This document shows positions 4,941-31,951 of a DNA stretch of 41,265 nucleotides, in pieces. Each line of letters begins with the position of its first letter. Within the stretch, counting starts at the first letter, position 1. The stretch is from Candidatus Poribacteria bacterium. GTDB taxonomy: Bacteria; Poribacteria; WGA-4E; WGA-3G. A program made the position numbers and the translations under genes. The notes beneath the pieces are model-generated. The model saw only the letters and a program-made list of their open reading frames with translations. It was not told where the DNA came from and did not search any database. The stretch is from contig VXPE01000009.1 of NCBI GenBank assembly GCA_009839745.1, positions 1 through 41,265 of the forward strand. Direction: 5' to 3'.

Positions 4941-5507
4941 TCAGTTTTGTAGTTGCACAGAAGTCCGTGAATTTCTTATACTTTCGCTCTGGTGTGCCGG
5001 GGCAAGCAGAATCCTGCCCCGTTTTCGTGAATATACAAAAACGCCCATTTCATCTGCGTTTGATAGCGCGTGTCCGATAACAATGAGAATGCATTCTGGA
5101 CAGGCTGTGTTTGTGTCCTTTGCAATCGCTAACTGCTGCCTGTCATCCCTTTGACTTGGGAGGGGCGCGGCATCTGGATGGCTGTGCCATTCGCCGACGT
5201 AATGACGTTTACCCCTGAAAGTCTGTCGGAGCTTTATAAAGAACTCTCGCAAACCGGCGATGCCTCTATAAAACGAAATCCGCGAACCTTTTGAATCTGA
5301 ACTCAAAGGAGCAAGATCGATAACAAAGGCTTCAAAGCCATCATCGGAATAACATCCAATCAAAGAGGTTCCTACTTCCTTTGGAGCATGTGCTTGTGCC
5401 ATTTCCATCATTTTCAAAAAACAAGCATTTGAGAGCCTGACGGTGTATTTCTGGCAGTCTGACTGCCACCTAAGTGAAGTGCTATCTGTCAATATTCCTT
5501 TCCCCAT
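4941..5507 (-). CDS. cap3: CBASS Cap3, JAMM/Mov34 isopeptidase
   Basis: This 188-residue JAB/MPN-family protein carries the full JAMM zinc motif: H108-S-H110-P followed by S118 and D121, with E44 upstream in KEVGTSLIG. In type II CBASS, Cap3 is a deubiquitinase-like peptidase that removes the CD-NTase from the conjugates made by Cap2, tuning its activity. Its ATG lies inside the end of cap2 (19-bp overlap), so the two are translationally linked. It is the last gene of the operon; 130 bp follow before the convergent small-membrane-protein gene. Family and role are well supported by motif and neighbours. Confidence 0.93.
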   Translation of the reverse strand: MGKGILTDSTSLRWQSDCQKYTVRLSNACFLKMMEMAQAHAPKEVGTSLIGCYSDDGFEAFVIDLAPLSSDSKGSRISFYRGIAGLREFFIKLRQTFRGKRHYVGEWHSHPDAAPLPSQRDDRQQLAIAKDTNTACPECILIVIGHALSNADEMGVFVYSRKRGRILLAPAHQSESIRNSRTSVQLQN

Positions 5508-7342
5508 ACTTTTTCGACAAGCACACCAAGTTGGTCACTATTTTGTGCTATGAGATTTTTCCTTTTGACAATTGCTGCAATTCCTGTTTCTTGTTTGGTA
5601 GTTATAGAATGGCTGATAATATCTACAGCGTGTGCAGCGAGAATTTGAATATGTGCATTGAGTGCGGGAAAGGTCGGATGCCAACAACCTGCACCTTCTA
5701 TAATTTGTTCGTCTTTTGAGGGCTGATAGAAGTACACATCGGGATCAAGCGGTGTGTACTTCTCTTGAACGGCGTAATTGAGATCCTTAAAGATTTCGAG
5801 GCATGACCTGCCCTCACCGGATATACATAAAGTGAGCAATTCTGCGTGGAAATTGAAAAATAAGGAAATCAATCGTTTTCCGTTTTCAACTGCGTATTGA
5901 TTCAACCACTGAAAAGCGGCTTCACTTGTGGTACAATCAACAAATACTTCGGCAGCTGTAAGTACCTGGCGAATTGCCTTATCCGAGCGTGAATCTAAGG
6001 GGACCCTGTCGGAATACCCTTTTATCCTTGAAAGGGGATTCGCTAGCGACAAGGTTTCGGCAAGGGCTTGCGCTTTATTTCTACCGATAGAAGAACCGTC
6101 CAGGGTATGACGACAAAGATTGCCAAACTTTATCGTGTCTGGGTCAACGAGACTCATTTGGTGTACGCCGCCGCGTGTAAGTAATTCTGCGATGGAACTC
6201 CCCAAAGCCCCACAGCCGAAAACGGCAATAGGGGTTGCTTGAACCTTTGATGGATACGCACCTCTGGTATATAACCGATCACGTGCGACGTTTTCAACCT
6301 GTCCCCATGGTAACTGTTGAGAGGGTGAGAAACATCCATTTTCTTTCAATCTTTGCCAGATTTGTCTGGGTTTACGAGCAGGACCTTTTAAGCGAGGCTT
6401 TCGTTTTTGGGATCTGAATCCGTTGAGATTTTGAAAAAGAAGGGGTTGCCAATGGATTTCGGTGAACGGTGATCCAACTTTTTCTGGAATCGGAAAACCG
6501 ATGAGGAGAATTCCGAACTTATACGAATTTTTAAGGTTCCAAACTTCTTTGAGAAGTGTATAGAAGTCCAAACTATTCCTTGAACACAACGTATCCATCT
6601 CCTCATAGGTTTGAGGTGGCCGATGTCTTTCGTAACGGATGTCGCGTACGATCAGCCATTTTCCTTTGATTTTGCTGTTTGTTTCCAACGCATCCTGTGC
6701 GAATTCTGACTCTCTAACCAATGAACCGTCCTTCTGGTAAAATTTAACAGCGAAGATCGCTGGAATACCCTTGCCCCAATAGCATTCGACGTCACCGGAT
6801 GCGCCGAGGAAGGGTTCCCATTTTCCATAGCGTTTTGGAGACTCCTCAAAGATAAAAGGGACATTTGCTGGCAACGGCGACTCCAAAAATTTACGGCTAA
6901 AGTCTGGTAATTCATACGGTTCGCCAGTTTGTAGAAGTCTACCATTTGCTGCGTCTTCGAGCCATTCGATGGCCCATTTGACGTAGCAAACAAGCCGGGA
7001 TGCATTGAGAGGTGCGAGTGCTTCTTCGGGTAAGCACAATTTCCCAGATTCAGCATCTTGGTGTGGGAACGCGTTGACATTTCCGGGATAAAAGTCCACG
7101 GGTTCCCTCGGGAATGTTTCAGGTATCACGACGCGTAAAGTGATTTCCCCCGGCAACTTCTCAGCGTTCGGATAGGGGGCTTTAGCAACACACTCAAACT
7201 CCCATCCTGTTTCTCCTTCTCTTAGATTCTCGCGAAGCGGCAGGGTAATTTCAACGAGACGTTGTCGACACAGAAGGTCATATGCTTCTATAATAGCATC
7301 GGAGGATTCACACGACGGTCTATCCATATCTGGTCTATCCAT
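5489..7342 (-). CDS. cap2: CBASS Cap2, fused E2-E1 conjugating enzyme
   Basis: The 617-residue protein joins an N-terminal E2/UBC-like domain (about residues 15-150, with catalytic cysteine C103 in SGKLCLPEE) to a linker region and a C-terminal ThiF/E1 adenylating domain. The E1 part shows the nucleotide loop VFGCGALGSSIAELLTRGG, the metal-binding region LVDPDTIKFGNLCRH, and a likely catalytic cysteine at about C553 in GAGCWHPTF. Cap2 activates the C-terminal glycine of the CD-NTase and conjugates it to a target, raising nucleotide-second-messenger synthesis. Its ATG overlaps the CD-NTase stop by 8 bp. A 15-bp tandem duplication at 7317-7346 doubles the start region (MDRPDMDRP), so ATG at 7342 or 7327 could be used. 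Confidence 0.95.
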   Translation of the reverse strand: MDRPDMDRPSCESSDAIIEAYDLLCRQRLVEITLPLRENLREGETGWEFECVAKAPYPNAEKLPGEITLRVVIPETFPREPVDFYPGNVNAFPHQDAESGKLCLPEEALAPLNASRLVCYVKWAIEWLEDAANGRLLQTGEPYELPDFSRKFLESPLPANVPFIFEESPKRYGKWEPFLGASGDVECYWGKGIPAIFAVKFYQKDGSLVRESEFAQDALETNSKIKGKWLIVRDIRYERHRPPQTYEEMDTLCSRNSLDFYTLLKEVWNLKNSYKFGILLIGFPIPEKVGSPFTEIHWQPLLFQNLNGFRSQKRKPRLKGPARKPRQIWQRLKENGCFSPSQQLPWGQVENVARDRLYTRGAYPSKVQATPIAVFGCGALGSSIAELLTRGGVHQMSLVDPDTIKFGNLCRHTLDGSSIGRNKAQALAETLSLANPLSRIKGYSDRVPLDSRSDKAIRQVLTAAEVFVDCTTSEAAFQWLNQYAVENGKRLISLFFNFHAELLTLCISGEGRSCLEIFKDLNYAVQEKYTPLDPDVYFYQPSKDEQIIEGAGCWHPTFPALNAHIQILAAHAVDIISHSITTKQETGIAAIVKRKNLIAQNSDQLGVLVEKVWGKEY

Positions 7343-7346
7343 ATTT
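7317..7346 (-). repeat. 15-bp tandem duplication at CD-NTase/cap2 junction
   Basis: GGTCTATCCATATCT is followed directly by a second copy with one mismatch. On the coding strand each copy contains ATGGATAG, which serves both as the glycine-stop of the CD-NTase and as a cap2 start codon. Removing either copy would keep both functions. Confidence 0.85.
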
Positions 7347-8480
7347 GCGTGGTGTTAAATCACCTGTCTGTTCTCTCAGTGGTGCGACAAAGGGACCTTT
7401 TGAACTGTTCCCGCTATTCCCATTATCATCAGAATCATCGGAATCGGGAAACTTGTTACCGAACAATTCTCTCCATTTCTCAATGGACTTTTCTTTTGTC
7501 TCAGCATCAAGAGCTTCACGTGCTATTTCAGCAGCTGTCTCGGCATGTTCATAAAACTCGGCAAACTCCTCACCAGACACCCTATCTAAAACATTGTGTC
7601 CAGGTACACCGTGGTCTGGTAGATAGGGGACAAGTTCGCATTCTGCATACGCACCATAATTCGCAACGATGTTTTCCAGCGTGAGGGTCACCCCTTCGGC
7701 AACAGATGTTATGTCATCAGGACAACAGACTCCGATGAGATGTTCAAGCGGATAGCCTTTGGGTCTGTCGTCGGGGTGGTGGACTCTTTGCCACCATTTT
7801 ATGGGTTTGACGATATTCACGTAATGCTTATTACATCTGGCGTTCTTTCCCCAGGTCCATTTGATCTGCTCTAATGGATGGGTCTCCTCCCAGTCACCAG
7901 CATCGCGATTGGGTATCCATAGCGGTTCGGTTTTCCATTCTTGTTCTTGACGGATCGCTTCAAAAAAAGCGGTTTGACTGCTCCTTTTCTCCGGCGGAAC
8001 CCAAGATTTTTTTAAGAACCAATCATCAATATCCTCCGGGGTTAGGAATGTTCGGGCAGCTTGACTTTTGTAAGCTTCCTCTTCTGCTTCAGACGGTGCC
8101 GAGGTGATAACGAGGTCGAGATTCACGTACGATAATTCAATTCCAAATGAACGTCCTTGTCTTTGATATTTACCCTCGTAGTACTCATCCAAAAAGGGAA
8201 CGAAGATATCCATAGCATCATCGGGATTTGGATAGTTCTCTCGCTTCAGGCGCGTGACGGTGATGATATCAACATCTAATTTTGCCTCACCTTTTGGACG
8301 AACAGCAGTCGCTCGCCGGTAACTCCCTTGTAGAAAAGTGCTAACAAGAATCTGTTTTAAATCCTCGTAATTCTCAAGTCGCTTGCGTAACGTCTGATGT
8401 CCTGTTTGGCAGTCATCTTTTTGATTCTTCGTGGGACGGATGCCTTGGAGAAACTTTGTAAAATAGGTTGGTAATTCCAT
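7335..8480 (-). CDS. cdnD-like: CBASS CD-NTase (cGAS/DncV-like nucleotidyltransferase)
   Basis: The 381-residue protein has the polymerase-beta-type nucleotidyltransferase core: G52-S53 in LQGSYRRATAVRPKGEAKLD, the metal-binding pair D69-x-D71 (KLDVDIITV) and a third aspartate D122 (VNLDLVITS). Such enzymes make cyclic di- or trinucleotides on phage sensing. The product ends in ...LTPRKYG, a C-terminal glycine as required for Cap2 conjugation. The start has AGGAGGAC upstream and lies 26 bp after cap4. Pairing with a SAVED-domain Cap4 and Cap2/Cap3 favours clade D and a cyclic trinucleotide product, but clade and product are inference. The symbol is therefore approximate. Confidence 0.93.
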   Translation of the reverse strand: MELPTYFTKFLQGIRPTKNQKDDCQTGHQTLRKRLENYEDLKQILVSTFLQGSYRRATAVRPKGEAKLDVDIITVTRLKRENYPNPDDAMDIFVPFLDEYYEGKYQRQGRSFGIELSYVNLDLVITSAPSEAEEEAYKSQAARTFLTPEDIDDWFLKKSWVPPEKRSSQTAFFEAIRQEQEWKTEPLWIPNRDAGDWEETHPLEQIKWTWGKNARCNKHYVNIVKPIKWWQRVHHPDDRPKGYPLEHLIGVCCPDDITSVAEGVTLTLENIVANYGAYAECELVPYLPDHGVPGHNVLDRVSGEEFAEFYEHAETAAEIAREALDAETKEKSIEKWRELFGNKFPDSDDSDDNGNSGNSSKGPFVAPLREQTGDLTPRKYG

Positions 8481-8506
8481 GGAATTGTCCTCCTAATTGT
8501 TGAATG

Positions 8507-10015
8507 TTAATAGGTAATACGTAGACTCGGATAATATGTCCGGCCGCCGCGTTGCCCTTCAAAGTCGTATTCATAGAGTTGAATATGTGGGGTGATATAA
8601 CGTAATGTATGTCCAAAGACATAAGCCAATGCAACGGGACCTGCAAAAAAGAGGTGGACCGTCTGGCACGTCTCAGGGAGTATCTCGCGAAGTTGTTCCG
8701 CTAGCTGATACCCGAGCTGCCATGCGTGAGTGCCTCCCGATACCGCAGTGGGTCCGATTTCTCCTGTAGGAGCAACTCGAATTTGCGGTAGTTCGCTGTA
8801 TCCTTCAGCAGATAGGTAAACTTGCATCTGTTTCTGGATGCAATGCGTCACAGAAATTTCCACGATGACTTCCTCATCAATTTTTCCAAAGGTTTGGAAC
8901 CTCCACAGGTTTGTGTCGGGATCTGGCTCACACTGTTTCCAAAGTTCGTAGTCGCTTCCGTTCTTTTGTGTGGGTATGATTTGAATCCGATGTTTAGGAC
9001 TCACCAGATGCCCGGCAAAGAACGCGATACTGAGATGACAATCAAAGAAGATATGGATGGGTTGTGGTACATCCATTAATTTGGGGTCCAACATGAATGC
9101 TGAAATTTTCTCAGGTATCTCCTTTTTCCAATGTGTATCCATGATAGGAAAACGTTCATCAAACAACGAGAGTAAATCGAGACGTGCGACTTGAAGGTCG
9201 CTGGGTCGCCGTGCGAATTGCCCAAAACTTTGGATGGAGATTTCGCTATGCTTTGTGGCGGGGAGTGCCATTAATTTTTCTTCACGAATCATCTGGTTAA
9301 AAGCCACTTCATCAAACAAATTCCGCCCCTGTGCAAAAAGTTCCCAAGCGAGGCTATCATAAGGGATATGAGTTACTGTTTGGTCAATAGGTTGTAGTCC
9401 TGCTAATTTCAGGCGAGGTTCCATCTCCCTTTCGAGATCCACAAGGTTCTTTCCGAGCGTAAACCGAACGGTATTCAGAAAAGTACGAAGTTCTTCTTCG
9501 GATATAGAGAGATGTGCTGCGAGTTTAGAACGCACTTGCCCCGCTGCGGATCTCGGGCCATTCTCATAAAAGGTCGGACGAATCATTTCCTCATGTAAAT
9601 GCTTGGCGAGTGTATCGTGATTCGCCCAATGCCAGTTGGAGAAGATGTACAACCTGTACGCGTCAGGATGAAGTTTTTCTGACAGTTCTACATACGCGTC
9701 GTATAGGCGTTTCAGCATTGAATTTTGATTGCTGATAAACCTTGGATCTATGAGATTTTCATGAGTGAATGCGCCATGTTGTGTCATGTGGTACTTACAT
9801 TGAAAGAATTCATAAACGACTTCTCGTTTCCCTGTTACTCGATCTTTTATGGGTTCACTGTAGGAGACGACGACATCATCGACAAAAGAGACGCGATCGC
9901 TTTCCAAAGTGACAGATTTGACATAATCGTTGGTTCTGAGCTCAAGCAACTTCAGCCAAAAGACTCTGGCTTGGTACTCATCCCCGTTTCTTCGCGCTGC
10001 AATCGCCTTTGCCAT
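8507..10015 (-). CDS. cap4: CBASS effector Cap4: nuclease plus SAVED domain
   Basis: The 502-residue protein begins with a DUF4297-type PD-(D/E)xK nuclease-like domain (about residues 1-220): the acidic pair D46-D47 in SFVDDVVV and Q72-C-K74 in YEFFQCKYH match the D...QxK active site. The C-terminal part (about 290-502) reads as a SAVED sensor domain, with IHIFFDCHLSIAFFAGHL and VHLFFAGPVALAYVFGH strands. In known Cap4 proteins, cyclic oligonucleotide binding to SAVED drives oligomerisation and unspecific double-stranded DNA cleavage, killing the infected cell. It is the first gene of the operon, about 110 nt behind a consensus promoter, with AGGAG 12 bases before the ATG. Confidence 0.92.
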   Translation of the reverse strand: MAKAIAARRNGDEYQARVFWLKLLELRTNDYVKSVTLESDRVSFVDDVVVSYSEPIKDRVTGKREVVYEFFQCKYHMTQHGAFTHENLIDPRFISNQNSMLKRLYDAYVELSEKLHPDAYRLYIFSNWHWANHDTLAKHLHEEMIRPTFYENGPRSAAGQVRSKLAAHLSISEEELRTFLNTVRFTLGKNLVDLEREMEPRLKLAGLQPIDQTVTHIPYDSLAWELFAQGRNLFDEVAFNQMIREEKLMALPATKHSEISIQSFGQFARRPSDLQVARLDLLSLFDERFPIMDTHWKKEIPEKISAFMLDPKLMDVPQPIHIFFDCHLSIAFFAGHLVSPKHRIQIIPTQKNGSDYELWKQCEPDPDTNLWRFQTFGKIDEEVIVEISVTHCIQKQMQVYLSAEGYSELPQIRVAPTGEIGPTAVSGGTHAWQLGYQLAEQLREILPETCQTVHLFFAGPVALAYVFGHTLRYITPHIQLYEYDFEGQRGGRTYYPSLRITY

Positions 10016-10233: not shown

Positions 10234-10638
10234 ATGAAACTGGGGCAAAAAATCAGGCAACTCCGGGAAGAAAAGGGGCTTTCACTTAATGGGCTGGCTG
10301 AAGAAGCAAGTGTCTCTAAGGCTTATTTATCGCAGCTCGAAAACGATGTGAGTAAGCAACCTTCGGCTGAGATATTGCTCAAAATTGCTTCAGCACTTGG
10401 TGTAACTATTGCAGATCTCCTTGACCAGCCTGTCCGCGTTTATGCGGAAGACTTTGAAGATGAAGATGTTCCGCATGTTTTACGTGAATTTATCGATGAA
10501 CGAGGAGAAGCCCTGGATATTCAAAAAGAGGATGTCCGAATGCTGATGAATATTCGGTATAGAGGGAACCAACCCAAGGCTATTGAAGAATGGGAGCACA
10601 TTCTGCAAACGATCCGGTATGTGATGAGGAAACGATGA
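10234..10638 (+). CDS. capH: CapH, XRE-family repressor of CBASS
   Basis: The 134-residue protein has an N-terminal XRE/Cro helix-turn-helix (residues 4-60: KIRQLREEKGLSLNGLAEEA, then VSKAYLSQLEN) and a C-terminal helical part with LREFIDERGEAL and EDVRMLMNIRYRG, as in repressors paired with ImmA-type peptidases. CapH is known to repress CBASS operons and to be cleaved by CapP when DNA is damaged. The ATG has AGGAGG nine bases upstream. It is divergent from cap4 and overlaps capP by 4 bp (ATGA). Position, partner and domains all agree, so the call is strong although operator binding is untested. Confidence 0.9.
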   Translation: MKLGQKIRQLREEKGLSLNGLAEEASVSKAYLSQLENDVSKQPSAEILLKIASALGVTIADLLDQPVRVYAEDFEDEDVPHVLREFIDERGEALDIQKEDVRMLMNIRYRGNQPKAIEEWEHILQTIRYVMRKR

Positions 10639-11603
10639 AACAAAGATATATTAAAGTTGGCAATAAGTATTATTTTCATGACTCAGTCATACGACTCATA
10701 GACCGTTATTCAGAAATATCTCAAGATCCAGAGGAGATTATTCGGAGTTTAGTTCAGGACAAACTCAATGTAGCGCGACAATCCAGACATTTCCGATGGG
10801 ATCGTCCGCCTTTCAATCCCGAGGTTCTCGCATCTATATTGGGGATCCGGTGCGAGGAATCTGTTGAATTAACACATAGTGAGGACGCTGAACTCCATCC
10901 CGCAGAAAATGGGCGAGTGGTCATCAGATACAACCCTGATAAACCTAAAGCACGGCAAAATTTCTCAATAGCTCATGAAATTGTTCATACTTTTTTTCCT
11001 GGATATCAGGACAAGTGTCATGCGCGCTACCAAAGTGGTAAATTCGATCCTCAAAATGAAGTAGAGTTTTTGTGTGATCTCGGAGCAAGTGAGATTGTCA
11101 TGCCTACACCTGAATTTGATTTGGATGTTAAAAGTATGGGGGTTTCACTAAAATCTCTGCAGAAACTTTCCAAGTTGTATGAGGTTTCTTTAGAAGCGGC
11201 CGCGATTCGTATGATTACAACGGATTTCTATCCGTGTGCTCTGATCGTGTTGGATTACAGCCACAAGCCTGCTGAAAAGGACGAAATTGAAGCATCAAAG
11301 TATCAACAAAGCTTATTCGGTGATGATCCTTGGGAGTCCCCTCCCATGAGTTTACGGGTGCAATATTTCGTTCGGGGAACGCATTTTTCTCCTTACATAC
11401 CGAGGCATAAATCAATTGAGGAGTCTTCTCCTTTGTATGAAGTGTCGGTAACTGGAAAACCATTTCAAGGGAGGACTGTCCTTAAATTGAAAAAAAACAC
11501 CCTGAATACGTATGTTGAAGCAATGGTTTTACCTAAAACGCATAGCACCCATCTTGGTTCTCGTGTCATAGCCATTTTATCCAACACTCGTAAGAACTTA
11601 TAA
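10635..11603 (+). CDS. capP: CapP, ImmA/IrrE-type zinc peptidase
   Basis: The 322-residue protein contains the gluzincin motif H114-E-I-V-H118 within FSIAHEIVHTFFPGYQ and a likely third ligand at E153 (ASEIVMP), placing it in the COG2856/DUF955 family. An N-terminal helical section (1-60) and a C-terminal sensor-like domain (about 240-322) flank the protease. CapP is reported to cut CapH after DNA damage, relieving repression. C128 close to the zinc site is a candidate for the cysteine-switch residue described for this family; that match is a guess. The start is ATG at 10635, overlapping the capH stop, chosen over an upstream GTG/ATG-type start at 10590 inside capH. Confidence 0.9.
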   Translation: MKQRYIKVGNKYYFHDSVIRLIDRYSEISQDPEEIIRSLVQDKLNVARQSRHFRWDRPPFNPEVLASILGIRCEESVELTHSEDAELHPAENGRVVIRYNPDKPKARQNFSIAHEIVHTFFPGYQDKCHARYQSGKFDPQNEVEFLCDLGASEIVMPTPEFDLDVKSMGVSLKSLQKLSKLYEVSLEAAAIRMITTDFYPCALIVLDYSHKPAEKDEIEASKYQQSLFGDDPWESPPMSLRVQYFVRGTHFSPYIPRHKSIEESSPLYEVSVTGKPFQGRTVLKLKKNTLNTYVEAMVLPKTHSTHLGSRVIAILSNTRKNL

Positions 11604-12069: not shown

Positions 12070-15000
12070 TCAATCCCTTTCAGTTATCTCAGAAGGCAGT
12101 CCCTCAATGATTTTGGTGGATTCGACGCTGACGTAGACGATGCGCTCTATCGCCGTGACGAGATCGCGGGGATTCTCAAACCAACCATTTGCATCGTTGA
12201 GAATGCCGTTATTCTTTTCAGGTGGGGTGATTTTGTAGCGGTTGATAAACCATTCCAGTGGTGTTCTACCATTAACAACATAACCATGTGCTTCTGTGGG
12301 TATACCAGATAATTGGATGTGCTCGTTGATAATGAGTGTATCTTTTGTGTTTTTATCAGCGAACCGCATCGCCCGCGTGCCCAGTAGGAAATCCTCGGGT
12401 TTTTCTTCCCAAAACAGGGCTTGTTTGCGAGGTTCAACCTTAAGGTTGGTATATCGACTGCACGTCTCATAATTGAGGTGGAGGTCTGCAAGTGCTTTTC
12501 CCGCCTCCGCGAAAGCTCGAAAGTTTGGGGCATATGGAATATGTGGTAACATTTTTGAAAAGTCGTTTGCGAATTGCTCCCGATAACTCGGTGCGTGCAG
12601 AATACCATAAACGTAGTCAAAGATAGTATCCTTGGTAATTGTGTCGTTGTCATAGTATTCACGGAAGGTGCGCAGTGCTGTATCTGAAATGTTGTCAATA
12701 CGATTTGGTGGACTATCAATACCTTGAAACATATTTGTTGTATCTGATGAATCGGTCTGTTCCAGATATTGATACCGTGGAAAGCATTGTGCTCCTGCTT
12801 CATTAAGGTTAATATCCGGCATTGTGTCGGTTATAAGCACAGAAAATTGTTTTTTTCGCCCCTCGTTTTTCGCTCCCTTGCCTGGAACACATATCACTCG
12901 ATTTTCACTTGAAGCATCTGGAAAGATTTTATCCATCTGGTACTTTCTCTGTATGAAGATGTAGTCGGCGTAGCAATTTGTCAAAATGAATGGACGATAC
13001 AAAATCTGTCGGATGTACCTATCCGCAAATTTTGTTTTCTGCCTTCTTTTCAACTTCTTTTCAAGATCTTCATCCCATTTGATATTAGTGTTGTGTCTGT
13101 CCATTACCTCGTTAAGTACCTGTTCAATCTCCGGATTTTTCTCCAGCTCAGAAATAGCATCAAGATACTCCTCTGTCATTCGTTTTGCGTGCTTAGCGCA
13201 AGTATCGCGAGAAAAGTTGCAGAGGTATGGATCTCTACCAGTCTTACAGCCGCTGCTAAACAGTTTAAAGATTGCATCATCAGCCTTGCCATCTCTTGCG
13301 TCATCTGATCCAAGTGGATAGAATTGAGCAAATGTCTCACTACGATGTTCAATCCAATCGTGCTCCTTGTTAGGTGTAATTATCTCCCAATCACTAAATC
13401 CCGAAAATGACCCTGCTTCGCGTAGTGCTGTAAACTTCTCTTCGCGTTTGAGAGCATCACCAATTTCTCGGTAATGGATGAGGCAACCCTCGTGTGTAGC
13501 CCCTGGATTCTTAACGAGAATCACAATAGCAACAGGAGACTGTGTAGCATTACGGAAAACCCCTTCTCCTTCACGGAGTGATGCTTTTGCTTTTCCTCGG
13601 AGGTTCAGAAAGTAGACAGAACTAAATTCCTCTGGTAAACATGCACGAATTCCGGCATCAACAATACCGTCAATCCATGTAGCACTTGTAACAAAGCCTA
13701 TAATTCCGTGCTCTCCAATTCTGTCAGAGGCCCATCGGATTGCCATCTTATAAGAGTCGTAGAGTGTGTTCTTATTCCTTGTTTTTACTCTCGCTGCGTA
13801 TGTTTCTCTGACGCGCTGCCTAAGTTCTGGGTACTTCACATTTGGAGAATCTTCAGCAGCGTTTTTTCGCTTCGCTTTCCATGGTGGGTTCCCTACGATG
13901 ACGCGGATCGGAAGTTTCTGTTGATGCTCGGCGCGCTCGTTGTTTTCTACCATTCTCTCCTTCGGGAAAAGCGTTGGTTTTTCGGATTTATTCAGGTTGA
14001 AGGTGTCGGTCAAGATAATACCGTGGAACGGTTCATATCCATTGTCTTCTTTGTGCTGTCCTCGGAACGCTTCTTCAATGTTGACAGATGCGATGTAGTA
14101 AGCGAGTAGGAGAATCTCGTTTGCGTGGAGTTCTTTGCGATACTTCCGCTCAAGATCTTCGTGCTGGATAAGTCCAGATTGTAGGAGCTGCACAATGAAT
14201 GTACCGGTGCCGGTGAACGGATCAAGCATATGGACACCTTTGTCACTGATGGTTTTTCCAAACTCCTCCTGTAATATGTCATTAACGCTATGCAAGACGA
14301 AGTCCACAAGCGGTATTGGTGTATAGGCGATGCCGAGTCGGTCTGCTTCTTTTTTCAGTGCTTTTTTGAAGAACTGCTCGTAGAGATCTGATAGCACCTC
14401 TTGTCGTCCTTGGCTACTCTTGACACCGCTGGCGCGCGTCTGGACACTGTCATAGAACCCCCGCAAATCCCGCGTCTCGTTCTCAAGTCCGAATTCCGCA
14501 AAGTCCTTTTGTAGGTTATCGAGTGCTGTTGCTACAGGGTTACCAGATGAAAAGTCGTAGTCTTCAAAAAGCGCGTCAAAGACAGGACTGGTCAAAATGT
14601 GCTGCGCCATCATATCTATTGCATTGTCGCGGGTGATAGACGTGTTAATCGTCTTTTTCAACTCGCTGTGGAAATTTTCAAACCGTTCGCTCAATGTAGC
14701 GTTTTCGGGATTATCCAGTAGATTTTGAATGCGGATAACGAGTCGCTCAAAAATATCAGCGACATCCTTTGCCCAGTTTTCCCAGTATGGTTTATCGCCA
14801 CACTTCTGGACGATTTTTGAGAGTATCGCTTCGACGGGAATTTCAACTGGCAACAGTGAAAGTTGTTCAGGTGCCCAATCGGAACCCCCACCAATGACAA
14901 TAGAATCGGGGAGCTCTCTATTGAGGTCAATACTATTGATTTGACCATCGAACCTGTCATCGTGTGAACGGAGTGCGTTGAGAACGCTCCAGACATTAGA

Positions 15001-16920
15001 GAACCGTTCATTGTCATTTAGAGCTGCAGCAGGGTCTTGATCGTCGGGGATAGCAACGGGCAATATGACATAACCGAATTGCTTCCCCGGTGCCTTCCGC
15101 ATGACGCGACCCACTGCTTGGACAACATCAATGTGGGATTTGCGAGGTTTATAGAAGATCACGGCATCGAGGGCAGGGACATCAATACCTTCGGAAAGGC
15201 ATCTGGCATTCGAGAGGATACGGCAAACGTCATCGTCTTCGCCATCGTTATAGTTCTCGTTTTTTAACCAATCGAGGCGTGTTTTTCGGTTCAGGGCGTG
15301 GACGGTGCCGTCAACGTGCTCGGTTTCGCATAAAAAGTTGGTAGGTTGTTCATCCTCTGGCAGTTTTTCGAGGGCATCCTCAATAATATCGTTCCAATAG
15401 CGCGCCAGTGCCTTTGACTCGTTAATTCTGTTTGTGAATGCGATAACGCGTTTCAGGGGTCTGAGCGTTTCGTCGTCTTTCCCCTTATTTTCAGGGTTTT
15501 GTAGTGCGCGCCAGCAGCCGATGATTCGGGTTGCATCGTTGATGTTGATTTCGCTACCGTATTTACCGGTATTGCCTGCAAGTTTCGCATTAACTTCATG
15601 TTCCGATATACCAAAAATAGCGACTTTGTAGTCGGACAGTTCGCCGAGTTCAACGGCTCTGGAGAAAGGGAGTCGGTGAAACTGTGGACCGTATTTCTCT
15701 TCGTCGTCCATAGAGAACACTTCAACGTTATAGTTTGCGGCTTGTCTCCTTGCGTTTTCCGTATAAAGTTTAGGAGTGGCGGTCATATAGAGACGTTTAT
15801 CGGCGCGAATCCGAGCGGCATCGTGGACAAGAACAAATGGCGAGGTCTTATCTTCAGACTTATCAACACCGGTGGTTCTGTGTGCCTCATCGCAGAAAAT
15901 AATGTCAAATGGAGGTGCGCCGTGGTTCTGAACTTCTTCAATGAGTGGTAGTGACTGATATGTGCAGAAAACGACCGTCATTTTGCTGCTGTCGGGGTTC
16001 TGCAATGTAGGTAAGATTAATGAAGGGTCTGTAGTTACGTCAATCTTGAGTTCTTGAATAGAGGCATCCTCGCTTGTCCTGCCTGCGCTGGTATCCGAGC
16101 AGATGCCGATATAACTGTGTGGTATACCCCGTTGGTCTGACCATTCCCGCATCGCCTGTGAAAGCAAACCGATAGATGGCACGAGATACAGCACTCTGCC
16201 ATCGGTTCCGGCTATTTCCTCAGCGATTTTCAGTGCTGTAAAGGTTTTACCTGTGCCGCACGCCATAATAAGCTTGCCACGGTCGTATTCTTTGAAACCT
16301 TTGATAACATCATCAAACGCCTCTTTTTGATGATCCTTCAAGCTGAATGGTCTTTGTTTATAGGTGAGTTGTTCAGGTTCCTGTAGGCTCAGGTCGGGCC
16401 ATTCAAACGGGCTGTTTTCAAGATCACTGAAGCGGATGACTCGGAATTTATCTCCTAACGGCGTTATAGTCCTGAGAGCGTTCTCTCCAATTTCACCGCC
16501 AGTATTTACAAGAATTCGTGAGGTAAAGATTTCACTTGCTGAGGCAGAGATGAATGAGTCTATATCTGGCTTTGAAACCCGTGTGTCTTCTGCATAACAC
16601 TTGCACTGGATGGCACAGTATCCACCATCTTGCTTTTGTGCAACGAGATCGACACCTATATCGCGTCCGTCGAATTCCGTTCGGGTTGCTGCCCACTGTT
16701 TATAAAGATAGACTTCAGAGAATTGTTCTTTATAGTCGGGATCCTCACTGAAATATGTGAGCATCAACCGCTCGAAAAGTTCGCCTTTGCCGTATTCAGA
16801 TGTGGATTTCTCGCGGATGTAGTCGAGCGTGCTTTGGAAGCCAGGATTGGTTTGTCTACTACTTTCGCTTTCCAATTCTAAATAACTTTGTGTTGTCTCT
16901 GTCATAGTTGTTGTTGTCAT
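12070..16920 (-). CDS. Type ISP restriction-modification enzyme
   Basis: A single polypeptide of 1616 residues combines all R-M activities. An N-terminal Mrr-like nuclease shows GVDLVA (D91) and AIQCKC (Q105, K107). A superfamily II translocase follows: Walker A CGTGKT at 221-226, DEAH in IFCDEAHRTTG, TATPKLY, and motif VI QAVGRVMRKAPGK. After a helical coupler comes an N6-adenine methyltransferase with motif I DPFTGTGTF (about 900) and motif IV NPPW (about 1010), then a long target-recognition region. Size and order match LlaGI/LlaBIII-type enzymes, which methylate one strand and cleave after converging translocation. ATG at 16920 is preferred over 16935 because AGGAA lies seven bases upstream. 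All motifs look intact. Confidence 0.93.
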   Translation of the reverse strand: MTTTTMTETTQSYLELESESSRQTNPGFQSTLDYIREKSTSEYGKGELFERLMLTYFSEDPDYKEQFSEVYLYKQWAATRTEFDGRDIGVDLVAQKQDGGYCAIQCKCYAEDTRVSKPDIDSFISASASEIFTSRILVNTGGEIGENALRTITPLGDKFRVIRFSDLENSPFEWPDLSLQEPEQLTYKQRPFSLKDHQKEAFDDVIKGFKEYDRGKLIMACGTGKTFTALKIAEEIAGTDGRVLYLVPSIGLLSQAMREWSDQRGIPHSYIGICSDTSAGRTSEDASIQELKIDVTTDPSLILPTLQNPDSSKMTVVFCTYQSLPLIEEVQNHGAPPFDIIFCDEAHRTTGVDKSEDKTSPFVLVHDAARIRADKRLYMTATPKLYTENARRQAANYNVEVFSMDDEEKYGPQFHRLPFSRAVELGELSDYKVAIFGISEHEVNAKLAGNTGKYGSEININDATRIIGCWRALQNPENKGKDDETLRPLKRVIAFTNRINESKALARYWNDIIEDALEKLPEDEQPTNFLCETEHVDGTVHALNRKTRLDWLKNENYNDGEDDDVCRILSNARCLSEGIDVPALDAVIFYKPRKSHIDVVQAVGRVMRKAPGKQFGYVILPVAIPDDQDPAAALNDNERFSNVWSVLNALRSHDDRFDGQINSIDLNRELPDSIVIGGGSDWAPEQLSLLPVEIPVEAILSKIVQKCGDKPYWENWAKDVADIFERLVIRIQNLLDNPENATLSERFENFHSELKKTINTSITRDNAIDMMAQHILTSPVFDALFEDYDFSSGNPVATALDNLQKDFAEFGLENETRDLRGFYDSVQTRASGVKSSQGRQEVLSDLYEQFFKKALKKEADRLGIAYTPIPLVDFVLHSVNDILQEEFGKTISDKGVHMLDPFTGTGTFIVQLLQSGLIQHEDLERKYRKELHANEILLLAYYIASVNIEEAFRGQHKEDNGYEPFHGIILTDTFNLNKSEKPTLFPKERMVENNERAEHQQKLPIRVIVGNPPWKAKRKNAAEDSPNVKYPELRQRVRETYAARVKTRNKNTLYDSYKMAIRWASDRIGEHGIIGFVTSATWIDGIVDAGIRACLPEEFSSVYFLNLRGKAKASLREGEGVFRNATQSPVAIVILVKNPGATHEGCLIHYREIGDALKREEKFTALREAGSFSGFSDWEIITPNKEHDWIEHRSETFAQFYPLGSDDARDGKADDAIFKLFSSGCKTGRDPYLCNFSRDTCAKHAKRMTEEYLDAISELEKNPEIEQVLNEVMDRHNTNIKWDEDLEKKLKRRQKTKFADRYIRQILYRPFILTNCYADYIFIQRKYQMDKIFPDASSENRVICVPGKGAKNEGRKKQFSVLITDTMPDINLNEAGAQCFPRYQYLEQTDSSDTTNMFQGIDSPPNRIDNISDTALRTFREYYDNDTITKDTIFDYVYGILHAPSYREQFANDFSKMLPHIPYAPNFRAFAEAGKALADLHLNYETCSRYTNLKVEPRKQALFWEEKPEDFLLGTRAMRFADKNTKDTLIINEHIQLSGIPTEAHGYVVNGRTPLEWFINRYKITPPEKNNGILNDANGWFENPRDLVTAIERIVYVSVESTKIIEGLPSEITERD

Positions 16921-16987
16921 ATCTATTTCCTGCACCTACGTAACCATAAATTTATATCCTTCATTCCATCAATCCAATGATAATTTG

Positions 16988-31097: not shown

Positions 31098-31951
31098 TCA
31101 TTTTCTAATATTGCTCAAACGTGCTAACGCCTCTTGGAGCCGGACAACCTCGGCTTCTGCTTTCTGCCGAGCATCGGCTTCTTGATTGGCGCGTTCTTCT
31201 GCGTCCTCAGCGCGTTCAGCAGACGTTTTTAGCCATGCTTCTGCCTCAGGATCGTAAATTCCTAAACTCTCATCAAGCAGATGGAACTCTAAACCCAGCC
31301 TCACAGATGGAAGACCACCCCTGGCGAGGGATGCTATTTCAACATAAGCGTCTCCGATGAGACGAAACCCGAGCAAAGGGGACGGTAAATAACGCCTATC
31401 CACATCGTAGATGAAGTATTCAGGAATCCCGATCTCCGCATAAAGCTGCACCTTTCGCGTCAGGTCAGTGCGATAGGTCCCTTTGCTACGTTGTGTTTAC
31501 ATTCCATCATCAAAATCGTCCGGAAGTCAGTGCCTATCAGAATTTACGTCTATAGATCAAATGGATATTGCAGAACTATGGAAGCCTTGCCATGACTGGA
31601 TCCGGAGCCACAATGTAAACACTACCTAGCGAACTCTAAGACGAAGTCCGGGGGTTTGCCCTCCTCCCATATCTTATAGATACGCCGTTCTTTCTTACCG
31701 ATACCGAAAGCAACGAAAATATCAGGCGAGATAGATTTACGGGGGTCCCCCTCTTCATAATACATCATCATATCCCCGAGGACATAGACATCTGGGAGGT
31801 GAGCGAAATGATTTTCGATGCGATTAAAATTCTTGAGGAGCTCTCTAAAATGGCGTTCCGTTTCAGCCATAGGTTTTCCATCCGATTCCGGGTAGAGTTC
31901 CGCCGTTTCTGTAGGTGCGTAAGGAAGTGGGAGAGGATGTGCGGGTGCCAT
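31098..31951 (-). pseudogene. Uma2-family nuclease gene split by an insertion
   Basis: The gene is in two parts. The 5' part (31951-31622) encodes SPDIFVAFG and DFVLEFA of the Uma2 PD-(D/E)xK fold; the 3' part (from about 31488 down to 31098) resumes with SKGTYRTDLTRKVQLYAEIG and ends in a coiled coil (AEEAD/KAEAEV region). A 137-bp element at 31489-31625 separates them and brings an in-frame TAG. Removing the element and one CTA copy restores an uninterrupted frame reading EFASKGTYRTD. The intact protein would be about 235 residues. Disruption appears recent because both halves remain open. Confidence 0.88.
31489..31625. mobile_element. 137-bp MITE-like insertion in the Uma2 gene
   Basis: The element has inverted ends GTGTTTACATT (31493-31503) and AATGTAAACAC (31612-31622), perfect over 11 bp, and is flanked by CTA direct repeats at 31486-31488 and 31626-31628, a 3-bp target duplication. 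It has no coding capacity and would need a transposase supplied elsewhere. Confidence 0.85.

Follow-up and report, generated by a model that had tools for sequence, protein, structure and literature searches.

A young 138-bp MITE splits a Uma2 gene in Candidatus Poribacteria and is very probably mobilized by an IS5-family element

In the 5.04-Mb draft genome G000 (141 contigs) of Candidatus Poribacteria, a Uma2-family gene on the minus strand (31098-31951) is split by a short element, raising the questions of what this element is, where exactly it begins and ends, and what brought it there. The window, i.e. the entire stretch of 41,265 nucleotides analysed here, lies on contig C9 of this genome. 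Uma2 is described in Pfam as a putative restriction endonuclease family. The 5' part of the gene lies at 31629-31951 on the minus strand with its start codon at 31951, and the ORF comprising this upstream frame (31622-31951, minus strand) stops just inside the element. The 3' part (31098-31486, minus strand) consists of the ORF 31098-31451 (minus strand) and the open frame upstream of it, and orthologues in congeners run gapless past the insertion point. Joining the flanks at a single TA, i.e. removing the 140 bp from 31489 to 31628, restores an open frame of 714 bp, whose 237-residue product includes VLEFASKGTYRTDLTRK and matches Pfam Uma2 with E=4e-17. A sequence-only reading of the locus had proposed that a MITE interrupts a Uma2 gene and that the flanks rejoin in frame across EFASKGTYRTD, and both proposals are borne out. 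The element brings stop codons into the gene and shifts its frame, and the function of this gene was presumably lost through the insertion. Of note, Uma2-like genes are abundant in the genus, with several divergent relatives of the window gene (65-75% identity) per genome.

The same reading had suggested a search for empty sites in related strains, and at least 15 congeneric genomes proved to have an unbroken Uma2 gene in which the site is present once. In nine of these, the alignment of the gene spans 710-760 bp with 78-88% identity and is gapless at the insertion point, and in six further congeners (G024, G027, G029, G031, G034, and G060) both flanks meet at the same point. The Uma2 insertion was common to no other sampled genome. 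Two further copies of the element, described below, also have empty counterparts: the copy on contig C41 is absent from G026, which reads TTTTACTAGGCAG where G000 reads TTTTACTA, the element, and TAGGCAG, and G035 lacks the copy that splits a GmrSD gene, the empty site being at CACTAGCACG. At all three sites compared, one TA in the empty site corresponds to two TA in the filled site. Beside the C41 site, 1192 bp are 99.8% identical between G000 and G026 (L235, G000:C41, 13281-14472, versus L234, G026:C5), while the surrounding region is mostly 85-94% identical, which suggests a recent exchange of DNA between two species of the genus at this stretch.

To the base, the borders differ slightly from those read from the window alone. 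Ten copies of the element on ten contigs of G000 share exactly the stretch 31489-31626 plus the flanking TA, are 99-100% identical to one another, and have unrelated flanks outside the two TA; six of the ten are identical and the remaining four have one C-to-A change in common. The insertion proposed by the sequence-only reading is confirmed, but its length is 138 bp, one base more than the proposed 137 bp. Similarly, the perfect 11-bp inverted repeats GTGTTTACATT and AATGTAAACAC (31493-31503 and 31612-31622), each present once in the window, match exactly as claimed but form only the inner part of the ends. The full terminal inverted repeats are 15 bp long, with 13 of the 15 bases pairing and two mismatches: the left end (31489-31503, plus strand) reads CGTTGTGTTTACATT and is conserved in relatives, and the right end (31612-31626, minus strand) reads GGTAGTGTTTACATT on that strand and matches the ends of IS5-family elements.

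The one claim that had to be abandoned concerns the target. CTA stands on either side of the insert (31486-31488 and 31626-31628) and had been taken for a 3-bp target duplication; the copies instead show a 2-bp duplication of TA within YTAR. At the ten insertion sites, the base ahead of the left TA is C in eight and T in two (TTA), whereas the right side reads CTA in all ten, followed by G in nine and A in one. Because the left base varies while the right side is always CTA, the target is YTAR (mostly CTAG), TA is the duplicated part, and the element measures 138 bp; the apparent CTA duplication arises because the last base of the element is itself a C and a C happens to precede the TA at the Uma2 site. 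Comparison of the ten insertion sites with the empty sites thus places the two TA copies at 31487-31488 (left, in a CTAG target) and 31627-31628 (right).

Ten copies at 99-100% identity on ten contigs exclude a chance origin of the repeat, and this identity, together with the empty C41 site beside 1.2 kb at 99.8% identity, supports the recent movement that the sequence-only reading had suggested. With 138 bp, no long ORF inside, and no transposase gene, the element lies within the range of MITEs (under about 600 bp, no transposase gene), and it has terminal inverted repeats, a TA duplication relative to empty sites, copies at multiple unrelated sites, and ends shared with an IS. Like bacterial MITEs as reviewed (PMC10969869), it is short and non-coding, has inverted ends and a duplicated target, occurs in many near-identical copies, and has a partner IS. 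In one respect it departs from them: bacterial MITEs are normally intergenic (PMC10969869), whereas five of the ten copies here lie within ORFs. We conclude that the element is a MITE of the usual kind and represents a new family that is well delimited and recent. Two element ends were also seen head to head over CCTAGG (L143, G000:C104, 985-1020, and L042, 1490-1515), as would result from one element inserting precisely at another's end.

A transposase with the same ends and a 3-bp duplication had been proposed as a further search target; transposases with such ends were found in G000 and in relatives, the duplication being TA. G002, G005, G009, and G017 contain complete IS elements, 865-869 bp long, whose ends equal or closely resemble those of the MITE. 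These ends are GGTAGTGTTTACATT and CGTAGTGTTTACATT, and the elements at L062-L065 and L083 have TA on both sides. The first transposase frame matches DUF4096 (3.7e-22) and the second DDE_Tnp_1 (1.3e-11) as well as the NCBIfam IS5 family NF033580 (1.8e-38, 132.6 bits versus a cut-off of 110). Where the two frames overlap, there is a run of A. In G000, the other sites with GGTAGTGTTTACATT are the ends of longer elements, in which the left end is followed by a promoter-like stretch and the transposase start and the right end lies just after the transposase stop. Most of these ends fall at contig breaks, as expected of a multi-copy IS in a draft assembly. The best and nearly complete copy is on contig C73, where both transposase frames are open, the second up to the contig end; this putative autonomous copy is cut by the contig end. 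In G010, a MITE copy sits directly beside an IS end, the two joined by CCTAGG, which is what insertion into a CTAG target at the IS end would produce.

By published features, these ISs would fit the IS427 group of the IS5 family closely. In Paracoccus, members of this group (IS1248, ISPpa6, ISPam4) are 832-865 bp long, have 13-21-bp repeats and mostly 2-bp duplications, and mostly contain two overlapping ORFs with a frameshift motif (PMC3281130). The partner ISs resemble them in length (865-869 bp), repeats of about 15 bp, a 2-bp duplication, two overlapping frames, and an A-rich putative slip site. They come from Candidatus Poribacteria and match no named IS in the material searched, and the 138-bp element itself, unlike members of the IS427 group, is without a transposase. 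We therefore regard it as very probable that the element is a MITE mobilized in trans by an IS5-family, IS427-group-like IS with the same ends. Specifically, the IS transposase would be made from two overlapping frames, presumably by frameshifting, and would recognize the ends of about 15 bp common to IS and MITE; the element would then be cut out or copied and inserted at YTAR with duplication of the central TA. In G000, it would recently have spread in this way to at least ten sites, one of them within the now split Uma2 gene.

We considered three other accounts of the element. There is next to no probability that this Uma2 lineage has long carried the insert as a fixed feature, or that the insert is itself coded in frame: the former is refuted by at least 15 congeners that lack an insert at this place, and the gap shared with relatives that the sequence-only reading had named as a refutation is not there; the latter is contradicted by the stop codons and frame shift. 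It is also very improbable that a different transposase, e.g. of the IS630/Tc1 type, moves the element and that the likeness of its ends to those of the IS5 family is due to chance. A TA duplication by itself does not identify the transposase family, IS630/Tc1-type enzymes also duplicate TA, and other DDE transposases lie near some MITE copies. However, IS5-family elements in several genomes of the genus are nearly identical to the MITE over its first ~15 bp (GGTAGTGTTTACATT) and have in common with it the TA duplication and mostly also the Y and R on either side. Past the terminal ~15 bp, no sequence in common with the MITE is visible in the IS elements found, and for this reason we rejected the idea that the MITE arose by simple internal deletion from a larger IS.

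A somewhat less remote, but still improbable, alternative is that the repeat is kept for a function, as a structured RNA or regulatory sequence, whether or not it is also a simple parasite. Across 14 aligned copies, the interior is conserved over the genus (mean column identity 83%) and contains an inner imperfect inverted repeat, with a left arm at 31518-31528 that pairs with a right arm at 31594-31608; 93% of the cells are paired and three pairs are changed on both sides in some copies. Against a kept function, the folding energy is about as in shuffles (z -0.9 to -2.3), searches of Rfam gave sub-threshold chance matches only, with none near the gathering score, and the copies lie at unrelated sites and split five ORFs. 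Because the copies share recent ancestry in an active family, conservation of the interior is expected. Despite the compensating changes, we do not claim a functional structured RNA, given that the sequences are related. The conserved interior and the inner repeat are more plausibly the mark of an active family, and the inner repeat may be a second protein-binding repeat.

Returning to the MITE and its spread, we asked which genes it hit. In five of the ten cases, the reading frame is open in both flanks and interrupted by the copy. Besides the window copy in Uma2, the copy on C8 (L153, 207-2371) splits a GmrSD gene, that on C92 (L155, 1-1172) a ZorA-like gene, that on C79 (L150, 7599-8200) an 8xMP membrane protein gene, which sits between a ThsB-type TIR gene and HmaA/HmaB-like genes, and that on C41 (L149, 7618-8669) an unnamed ORF near an Eco57I-type methylase gene. 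Using 99 genes from 20 regions of G000 as a control and a PADLOC match at E 1e-15, two of the five split genes match as compared to at most seven of the 99 control genes (p of about 0.04 in a simple binomial, post hoc comparison). With n=5, this hints at a bias of the copies to defence-type genes and serves as a lead. It is conceivable, although we consider it unlikely, that the recent burst prefers anti-phage defence genes (GmrSD type IV restriction, ZorA, 8xMP in an island with TIR and HmaA/HmaB, the ORF beside the Eco57I-type methylase, and Uma2) and in this way gives the bacterium a means of losing defence systems; insertion into dispensable islands would yield the same pattern without any targeting.

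As a separate observation, the window contains on the minus strand a CBASS-like operon (4941-10015) of a JAB peptidase, an E1-E2 fusion, an oligonucleotide cyclase (PADLOC E=1e-156), and a SAVED endonuclease effector. It also contains, on the same strand at 12070-16935, a single 1621-aa restriction-modification protein that matches PADLOC type IIG/type I models, beside which an XRE regulator and an ImmA/IrrE-like gene, both judged by eye, lie at 10234-11603.

A consensus query detected elements related to the MITE in 24 of the 38 genomes sampled from the genus. The 24 genomes sampled outside it contained none. Identity to the window copy is 71-92% for most of the copies in relatives. The exact paired-end pattern occurs in nine GTDB contigs, all from Candidatus Poribacteria or uncultured Poribacteria. 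This pattern is absent from IMG/VR contigs, and we rejected spread by viruses on these grounds. Partial matches in relatives (L056, L059, L060, L138, and L141) look like truncated copies, and no transposase was seen adjoining them. In G025, a related MITE lies at the very ends of five contigs (C12, C42, C136, C142, and C157), and the assembly seems to break at it.

Literature searches found no description of such elements in sponge-associated Candidatus Poribacteria. Our analysis documents, in these uncultured bacteria, a young and probably active MITE family with a likely mobilizer and an exact target. The three empty sites fix its borders and target to the base, and its ends offer a means of locating every copy in the genus. 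The finding also cautions against reading split genes in the genomes of these bacteria as assembly errors, since they may have been knocked out recently by a transposon.
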